A DNA stretch of 61,968 nucleotides from Pseudomonadota bacterium (lineage in GTDB: Bacteria > Desulfobacterota > Syntrophia > Syntrophales > UBA8958). The notes below the pieces were generated by a model. The model was not told where the DNA came from. It searched no databases and saw only the letters and a list, made by a program, of their open reading frames with translations. Made by a program: the position numbers and the translations under genes. The stretch is taken from positions 1 through 61,968 of the forward strand of contig JASGUC010000039.1 in NCBI GenBank assembly GCA_030057915.1, read 5' to 3'. Each line of letters starts with the position of its first letter. The stretch's first letter is position 1. Positions 58,212 to 61,670 of this stretch are shown piece by piece.

Positions 58212-58877
<666 letters not shown>

Positions 58878-58908
58878 TTAAAAGGCCCTATATTTACAGG
58901 TGAAGCCA

Positions 58909-58937
58909 TCTATAGAAGAACGATCCCTGTTTGTCAA
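58909..58937 (-). promoter_or_regulatory. Sigma70-type promoter of the pyrR-pyrB operon
   Basis: On the minus strand TTGACA (58937-58932) is separated by 17 nt from TATAGA (58914-58909). Transcription would begin near 58901 and give a leader of about 90 nt before the attenuator hairpin. Confidence 0.8.
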
Positions 58938-58993
58938 GTCCAAAGCAGGATAAACCCGGATTTTCCCACGGAGGTTTCATCCCTGAAATGACA

Positions 58994-59008
58994 TTTTTCA
59001 AAGGTCTC
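58994..59008. repeat. Solo right end of the GAGACC element family
   Basis: TTTTTCAAAGGTCTC, identical to the right end of the copies at 3239 and 42932. No left end is seen; the adjacent upstream DNA is the pyr promoter region. It lies about 80 bp upstream of the PRC-CBS protein gene. Confidence 0.6.
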
Positions 59009-59089
59009 CAATGGAAAATCTGGGTCAAAAATGCCTTTCCGATCCGAGAGGGACTGTGTTATATACTGCCCCGCCTGGAGGTGGGAGTC

Positions 59090-60358
59090 ATGGCGGTCAA
59101 TGCTGAGCCTCAGGTTTTTTTGTTTTTGAGCGAAATCCTGGGGCAGCCGTTAATCGGGCCGGAAGGCCGTCCGGTGGGGAAAATCGTCGATCTGGTCGCG
59201 ACCGTGACCGAGCCCTATCCCGTCGTCACCGAGGCCCTGATCGACCGGGATGAGAAACGGGGAGAGATGCTTTTGTGTCCCTTTCCCGAAGTCGAGGAGC
59301 TGCGGCTTCCCTTTCATGCCGGCCGGCCGGCCGCCGACGATTTCCGGACCCTGGCGTTGCGGGAAAACGAACTGCTCCTCAAAGACTCCCTGATGGACAA
59401 GCAGATCGTTGACACCCACGGCGCCAAGGTGCTTCGGGTCAACGATCTCCAGTTTCTCATGGCCCGGCGACGCCTCCATCTGGTCCATGTGGATGTGGGC
59501 TTCCGGGGTCTCATGCGACGTTCCGGACTGGAAAAACTGATGGATATCCTTCTCCACGCCTTTTTCGATTACAGCCTGCCCAACCAGTACATCTCGTGGA
59601 AATACGTGCAGCCCATTTCCACGCCCGATCTCCTCCGCCTGAAGATCACCCAGGATCGCCTGGCCCGGCTTCACCCGGCCGACCTTGCGGACATCATCGA
59701 AGACCTGGATGCGCGCCAGCGTAGCGCCGTATTCCAGTCCCTCGACGTGGAAACAGCGGCGGAGATCCTGGAAGAAACGGATCCGAAGATCCAGGTCAGT
59801 CTCATAAGGGATATGAATGTCGCCGTGGCGTCGGATATCATCGAGGAGATGTCGCTGAGCGAAGCAGCGGACCTCCTGGGCGATCTCCCCAGGGACAAGG
59901 CCGAGGGGATCCTCAAGGAGATGGAGCAGGATATCGCCGAAGACGTCAAGGAACTCCTGGCCCATCCGGAGGAGGAGGCAGGGGGGTTGATGACCTCGGC
60001 GGTCCTCCAGTTTCCGCCGGAGACGACGGTGGAGATGGCGCTAACGACGATCCGCGGCGAAGCGGAGGATATGGACTTCATCTACTATGTATATGTGGTG
60101 AACGAGGAGGAGCGGCTCCTGGGGATGGTCAGCCTCCGGGAACTCTTGGCGGCCCCCATGGAGGCCCGCCTGGCGGACCTCATGGATGACCGGGTGATTT
60201 CGGTGCATCTTGAGGAAGACAAGGACGAGATCGCCGAGCTGTTTGCCAAATACGGCCTCATGGCGATCCCGGTGGTCGATGGCGAAGGAAGGATCAAGGG
60301 CGTGATTCCCTTCAAGAATCTCCTTGAGGTCGTGGCGCCGCATCTGGGAAAGAAATAA
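59090..60358 (+). CDS. Soluble PRC-barrel, MgtE N-domain and CBS-pair protein
   Basis: A 422-residue protein, started at ATG 59090 with GGAGGTGGGAG just upstream. Two PRC-barrel-like domains come first (LSEILGQPLIGPEGRPVGKI; DSLMDKQIVDTHGAKVLRV), then the MgtE intracellular N domain (LHPADLADIIEDLDARQRSA, LLGDLPRDKAEGILKEM), then two CBS motifs (EEAGGLMTSAVLQFP; DDRVISVHLEEDKDEIAEL and IPVVDGEGRIKGVI). The MgtE transport helices are missing. In MgtE these cytosolic domains sense Mg2+ and gate the channel; here they could regulate the transporter encoded immediately downstream (25 bp gap). Confidence 0.85.
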   Translation: MAVNAEPQVFLFLSEILGQPLIGPEGRPVGKIVDLVATVTEPYPVVTEALIDRDEKRGEMLLCPFPEVEELRLPFHAGRPAADDFRTLALRENELLLKDSLMDKQIVDTHGAKVLRVNDLQFLMARRRLHLVHVDVGFRGLMRRSGLEKLMDILLHAFFDYSLPNQYISWKYVQPISTPDLLRLKITQDRLARLHPADLADIIEDLDARQRSAVFQSLDVETAAEILEETDPKIQVSLIRDMNVAVASDIIEEMSLSEAADLLGDLPRDKAEGILKEMEQDIAEDVKELLAHPEEEAGGLMTSAVLQFPPETTVEMALTTIRGEAEDMDFIYYVYVVNEEERLLGMVSLRELLAAPMEARLADLMDDRVISVHLEEDKDEIAELFAKYGLMAIPVVDGEGRIKGVIPFKNLLEVVAPHLGKK

Positions 60359-60383
60359 TCATGGACGAAGGCGAGGGTCAAAG

Positions 60384-61670
60384 GTGCCGGAACGGAGCGA
60401 GAAAGGGAAAAGAGTCAATATCTTTCGCCGTCTGTTCCAGAAGAGATTCTGGCGCTCCCTGGGGCTGCTGTTTGCCCTTATCGGACCGGGAATCATTACC
60501 TCCAACGTCGATAACGATGCCGGCGGCATAACCACCTATTCCCTGGCCGGCGCCCAGTACGGCCTCTCCCTCCTGTGGACCCTCATCCCCATCTTCGTGG
60601 CCCTGATCGTCATCCAGGAGATGTGCGCCCGGATGGGGGTGGTTTCGGGCAAGGGTCTGTCCGATCTCATCAGGGAACGGTTCGGCGCCAAGATTACCGT
60701 TTACCTCATGATGGTCCTCTTCCTGGCCAATCTGGGCAACACCATCTCCGAATTCGCGGGCATCGCCGCCAGCCTGGAGATCTTCGGTGTCAGCAAGCAC
60801 CTTTCCGTTCCCCTTGGGGCCTTCCTCGTCTGGTGGCTTGTCGTCAAGGGAAACTACAAATCGGTGGAAAAGGTCTTCCTCGTGGCCTGCCTGTTCTATG
60901 TTTCCTATATCATCTCGGGATTCATGGGGAAACCGAACTGGAGCGAGATCGGGGTCGCCCTGGTCACCCCGACCCTCCGTGCGGACCCCGCCTTTCTCAC
61001 CATGGCCGTGGGCGTGGTCGGCACGACCATTGCCCCGTGGATGCAGTTCTATCTCCAGTCCTCCGTGGTGGACAAGGGCCTGAAGGTGGCGGACTATGCC
61101 TATACCCGGGTGGACATCATCGCCGGTTCCCTGATGGTCAATATCGTGGCCTTTTTCATCATCATGCTCTGCGCCGTCACGCTCTTTCAACAGGGGGTCC
61201 AGATCGAGACCGCCAAGGACGCGGCCCAGGCCCTGGCCCCCATGGCCGGGGCCTACTGCGCCCATCTCTTCGCCTTCGGCCTCCTGAACGCCTCCCTCTT
61301 TGCCGCCTCGATCCTGCCGCTGTCCACGGCCTACACGATCTGTGAGGCCTTCGGGTGGGAGTCCAGCCTCAATCTCAAGTTTACCGAGGCCCCGCAGTTC
61401 TATGGCCTCTATTCCCTCATGATCGTCCTGGGCGCCGCCATCATTCTCCTCCCCAACATGCCCCTGATCGGGATCATGTACTATTCTCAGGTCATAAACG
61501 GTCTGCTGCTGCCCTTTGTCCTGATCTTCATGCTGATCCTCGTCAATGACCGCCGGATCATGGGCGAGCATGTGAACGGCCGGACCATGAATATCATCGC
61601 CTGGTTCACCGTGGGCGTCCTGATCCTCCTCTCCCTGGCCATCGTCATCACTTCCCTTCTGCCGGCCTGA
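60384..61670 (+). CDS. NRAMP-like divalent cation transporter, probably Mg2+-type
   Basis: About 428 residues from GTG 60384 with GCGAGGG 7 nt upstream. It has around 11 transmembrane helices in the LeuT/NRAMP fold. The helix-1 metal loop reads ITSNVDNDAGGITTYS instead of the canonical DPGN, and helix 6 reads VGTTIAPWMQFYLQSS, lacking the metal-binding Met of MPH. Those changes are like the Nramp-related magnesium transporters rather than Mn/Fe transporters. The linked MgtE-domain gene also points to Mg2+. The ion is an inference. Confidence 0.82.
   Translation: MPERSEKGKRVNIFRRLFQKRFWRSLGLLFALIGPGIITSNVDNDAGGITTYSLAGAQYGLSLLWTLIPIFVALIVIQEMCARMGVVSGKGLSDLIRERFGAKITVYLMMVLFLANLGNTISEFAGIAASLEIFGVSKHLSVPLGAFLVWWLVVKGNYKSVEKVFLVACLFYVSYIISGFMGKPNWSEIGVALVTPTLRADPAFLTMAVGVVGTTIAPWMQFYLQSSVVDKGLKVADYAYTRVDIIAGSLMVNIVAFFIIMLCAVTLFQQGVQIETAKDAAQALAPMAGAYCAHLFAFGLLNASLFAASILPLSTAYTICEAFGWESSLNLKFTEAPQFYGLYSLMIVLGAAIILLPNMPLIGIMYYSQVINGLLLPFVLIFMLILVNDRRIMGEHVNGRTMNIIAWFTVGVLILLSLAIVITSLLPA

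Follow-up and report, generated by a model that had tools for sequence, protein, structure and literature searches.

NrmT transporters were described by Shin et al. in 2014, who stated that most members adjoin a gene for a homologue of the MgtE cytosolic domain, with speculation that this partner serves in feedback regulation or has chaperone activity (PMC4072509). In the same work the partner was dispensable for Mg2+ transport by C. acetobutylicum Ca_c0685/Ca_c3329. The A. capsulatum NrmT, which also has an MgtE-like neighbour, gave full rescue of Mn2+ uptake and partial rescue of Mg2+ uptake; co-expression of its partner made no change and the protein looked like a Mn transporter (PMC4072509). 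Our literature search found no paper settling what the MgtE-like neighbour of nrmT does. MgtE itself is closed by Mg2+ bound at sites Mg2-Mg7, with ligands D91 and D247 at Mg4, D226 and D250 at Mg5, D95 at Mg6 and E59 at Mg7, and the bridge to its plug helix is made by Mg4 and Mg5 (PMC5882242). On the transporter side, Ramanadane et al. defined the NRMTs (Nramp-related magnesium transporters) by DxxG-TxxA/T instead of DxxN-A/CxxM and by loss of the helix-6b histidines, with Trp and Asn in EleNRMT of Eggerthella lenta; EleNRMT transports Mg2+, and also Mn2+ in liposomes, and its T224A mutant retains Mn2+ transport while Mg2+ transport becomes undetectable (PMC8806188).

The window analysed here, a stretch of 61,968 nucleotides from a Syntrophaceae-like bacterium, holds a further member of this known NrmT operon type, for which both the pair and the hypothesis were published in 2014. 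Like the operons of C. acetobutylicum (Ca_c0685) and A. capsulatum (Acp2976-2977) described in PMC4072509, it has an NRAMP-outgroup transporter beside a gene that encodes the N-terminal cytoplasmic domain of MgtE; it differs from them in having no M-box and in the replacement of the Mg4 ligands in its clade. What the present analysis brings are modest additions: PRC domains that are near-universal and conserved in the partner, linkage that persists through rearrangement, and clade-wise loss of Mg4.

The transporter gene (60384..61670, + strand, 428 aa) probably starts at the GTG at 60384 and ends with the stop at 61670, the mechanical open reading frame beginning at a TTG at 60324. Its product matches PF01566 in Pfam (5.3e-103), and against solved structures EleNRMT is the best match over a nearly full-length alignment (7qia, E 4e-125; also 7qic, 7qji and 7qjj), followed by the canonical DraNramp (1.7e-28). 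Helix 1 reads NVDNDAGG and helix 6 GTTIAPWMQ, confirming the initial annotation's reading of an NRAMP-type protein without DPGN and MPH, with DNDAGG in helix 1 and no metal-site Met in helix 6. The helix-1 metal motif N-D-A-G-G (residues 44-48; 60513..60527, +) supplies D45 and G48, the metal-binding Asp being the second D of DNDAGG (EleNRMT D55); the helix-6 motif G-T-T-I-A-P-W-M-Q (residues 213-221; 61020..61046, +) supplies T214, A217 and W219. Both halves of the NRMT signature are thus present, as D45-A-G-G48 and T214-T-I-A217. T214 is the equivalent of EleNRMT T224, and E123, W219 and Q369 occupy the positions of E133, W229 and Q379, with Trp marking the helix-6b histidine loss. Every published EleNRMT site residue that we checked is retained (D45, G48, E123, T214, A217, W219, Q369). 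The window protein differs in having Gln, not Met, at the EleNRMT 231 position. E-values and a quick tree, whose deep forks are weak, group it with EleNRMT and not with canonical NRAMPs, and by these measures the transporter is a member of the NRMT branch.

Invariance of the site motifs among 73 loci is inflated, one search peptide having been IAPWMQFY, and a phylum-wide draw is less biased. Several relatives depart from the pattern. The NRMTs of L089 and L121 have Ala at the EleNRMT T224 position (ATVAPWMQ) and are candidates for a Mn2+ switch. Asn instead of Glu stands at the E133 position in 14 of 74 aligned rows, as well as in L097 and L098, whose group stands rather near to that of the window (66-68% identity). 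Two NRAMP-like proteins, L130 (G119) and L129 (G005), have helix 1 as DDPAC or DDPSG, are neither canonical nor NRMT, and have no sensor neighbour within the stretch examined.

The upstream partner gene (59090..60358, + strand, 422 aa), with a GGAGG ribosome site immediately 5' of it, encodes a detached MgtE-type sensor. It consists of two PRC-type barrels, an MgtE_N domain (residues 194-295, 1.5e-25 in Pfam; 59669..59974, +) and a pair of CBS domains (3e-18 over two stretches, about residues 296-415; 59975..60334, +), and ends right after the CBS pair, with neither plug helix nor channel. No transmembrane segment was found in it, the maximum 19-residue Kyte-Doolittle mean being 1.03. Foldseek returned the T. 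thermophilus MgtE cytosolic domain as the top match of the AlphaFold model (2yvy, E 4.8e-22; mean pLDDT 88, pTM 0.56 for the sensor alone). Pfam, the model and the family thus bear out the earlier description of a soluble protein that keeps the MgtE N and CBS domains plus PRC barrels and has no channel. The likeness to T. thermophilus MgtE (2yvy, 2zy9) extends over MgtE_N and the CBS pair at 33% identity across 231 columns; the differences are the missing plug helix and channel, the PRC barrels added N-terminally and changed ligands at two Mg2+ sites.

Comparison of the Mg2+ sites showed that the view of the protein as a Mg2+ sensor holds in part. The Mg7 and Mg6 residues are retained as E225 (Tt E59) and D261 (Tt D95), the latter in 67 of 68 homologues, but S257 and N410 replace the Mg4 ligands D91 and D247, G389 and E413 replace the Mg5 ligands D226 and D250, and the plug helix is missing. 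With Mg4 changed to Ser/Asn and Mg5 degraded in this clade, it is doubtful that the MgtE switch was simply carried over. Nucleotide binding by the sensor is likewise doubtful, since Leu390 stands at the position of the ATP-stacking Phe227 of MgtE. Among homologues the Mg4 pair varies jointly (D/D in 36, S/N in 19, S/S in 7 and D/A in 6), counts that come largely from one lineage and so do not represent many independent events. The D/D pair is kept in every M-box member of the sensor alignment.

The AlphaFold model places two small beta barrels at about residues 9-96 and 105-175 of the sensor, and secondary structure, Pfam and column conservation together outline a PRC region (residues about 9-175; 59114..59614, +) with a near-invariant block, D103-R144 and W170. 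The Pfam PRC match is sub-threshold in the window sensor (E 0.0067), and 65 of 68 family members are matched; our reading of the model is that the second barrel is probably PRC-type too. Residues 98-185 hold the sensor's largest share of near-invariant columns, 17 of 88 being at least 90% conserved, and N118, D119, D135, R143, R144 and W170 are kept even in the partner of the deep, distant locus L127. We infer that the PRC part is a docking module and the MgtE_N-CBS part a sensing module. A pseudo-fusion of the L005 pair, modelled by reading through the stop codon, gave a pTM of 0.71, as against 0.56 for the window partner alone; these are different proteins with different alignments and the score does not locate a contact, so the value is weakly and indirectly compatible with a defined contact or docking. 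No natural sensor-transporter fusion was recognised among the matches in the window's phylum. One long frame of the NRMT group (G203, 669 residues) was considered as a fusion and rejected, as it has no sensor part and its sensor gene is separate and convergent.

Analysis of 80 related loci demonstrated that the partner adjoins the transporter in nearly all of those with enough flanking sequence. In the phylum-wide draw, it lies within a few kb of 31 of 36 NDA[AG]G transporters and near none of four with other motifs. Three arrangements occur, with the partner before or after the transporter on its strand or else on the opposite one, indicating that the association outlives rearrangement, and its recurrence in dozens of genomes argues that the pair is not due to chance. 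The five unpaired exceptions among the 36 include L115, which is a short stretch, as well as L121 and the related L122-L124, which seem truly to be without a partner. L122, L123 and L124 (and L090) form a subgroup of NRMTs with the helix-6 motif TSITPWQQ and no adjacent MgtE-like partner. Conserved linkage of this kind strongly supports a presumed dedicated relation between transporter and partner.

A search for the M-box (RF00380) found none in the window, and neither did one at permissive thresholds over 58700-59200. M-box riboswitches do precede homologous pairs at eleven loci (L038, L052, L060, L065, L066, L072, L075, L102, L106, L107 and L109), and at the distant L127, where the transporter comes first, an M-box is located some 670 bases ahead of the transporter gene. 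On the quick tree, with weakly supported deep forks, the larger clade to which the window belongs takes in the M-box members and leaves out EleNRMT, making inherited Mg2+ transport the simplest reading. Together, NRMT membership, the checked Mg-site residues and the M-box on homologous pairs make a predicted role in Mg2+ uptake well supported. Of the initial annotation's proposal that the two proteins are a Mg2+ uptake pair, with the sensor as a separate subunit, the uptake role and the dedicated relation are thus supported.

Elsewhere in the genome, a full-length MgtE is encoded on another contig (C41) and there is a ZnuA-type binding protein; we found no match to CorA and no second NRAMP. 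Another conserved leader RNA was considered and set aside, as the upstream alignment of close relatives, judged by eye, contains only a promoter-like block, AAAAA-CTTT followed by GTTATA, close ahead of the ribosome site. On the opposite strand, a PyrR binding site is matched in Rfam below threshold (58778-58889, -; 41.9 bits, gathering threshold 54) ahead of a pyrR-like gene (58212-58862, -) at the head of a pyrB/pyrC-like cluster, the reading frames being assigned by eye. The PyrR site passes the threshold in the relatives L006 and L096.

The observed family membership, site residues, conserved linkage and domain make-up lead us to think it probable that this NrmT/NRMT operon encodes a Mg2+ transporter with a dedicated cytosolic regulator that throttles uptake. 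Mg2+, which we infer to be the physiological substrate here, would, as with EleNRMT, enter in largely hydrated form at an NRAMP site that is widened, and the transporter could probably move Mn2+ as well. The MgtE_N-CBS part would read a cytoplasmic signal, most likely Mg2+, the PRC module would probably dock the partner to the transporter, and the partner would throttle uptake once the cell is full. Counting against this explanation are the lack of an M-box in the window, the S/N and G/E residues at Mg4 and Mg5 and the absent plug helix, together with the partner results of Shin et al., the lack of a natural fusion and the unpaired L121-L124.

Some of the same points would fit a Mg2+ importer whose partner is no subunit but a chaperone-like or metal-buffering co-expressed protein that makes no direct contact, which we regard as unlikely. 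Shin et al. offer the chaperone alternative and report co-expression without effect (PMC4072509), and the MgtE sites are incomplete in the partner. However, linkage survives changes in order and strand, even the partner of the deep L127 locus keeps the PRC block and the L005 pseudo-fusion reached its pTM of 0.71, observations that bear on contact between the proteins without showing it directly.

It is rather improbable that the transporter mainly imports Mn2+, as is reported for the A. capsulatum NrmT, with a partner responding to Mn2+ or another ligand. The rescue of a Mn mutant by that NrmT with its MgtE-like neighbour (PMC4072509), the position of the window transporter as the only NRAMP found in its genome, the missing M-box and the altered Mg4/Mg5 ligands would all suit such a role, but the Mg2+-type site retains G48, T214 and A217, M-boxes accompany related and distant pairs on both sides of the window on the tree, and the ZnuA-type binding protein could belong to another transition-metal route. 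A Mn/Fe role had been called unlikely in the initial annotation, which is too strong, given that EleNRMT moves Mn2+ (PMC8806188) and that the A. capsulatum protein rescued a Mn mutant (PMC4072509). That a canonical Mn/Fe NRAMP lies by chance beside a decayed MgtE gene is hardly credible: Pfam and NCBIfam do label the protein Nramp, but canonical MntH identity is ruled out by the absence of DPGN and of a site Met and by EleNRMT as the nearest solved relative, the 422-aa partner is intact, its family is conserved and carries PRC domains of its own, and a separate full-length MgtE is encoded on C41.

A more specific form of the regulator reading, which we put forward tentatively and consider doubtful as it stands, is that the NRMT has a genuine regulatory subunit in the PRC-MgtE_N-CBS protein and is gated by it, a channel gating domain re-tethered by PRC, and that the Syntrophaceae-type clade lost Mg4 as a unit, giving another set point or ligand. 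PRC-type barrels in the partner find no mention in the accessible text of Shin et al. (PMC4072509). Concrete residues for mutation come from the conserved block of the PRC region and from the Mg4 site lost in this clade. If the partner is a regulatory subunit, the sensor domain of an ion channel would have been taken over for the control of a transporter with another fold.
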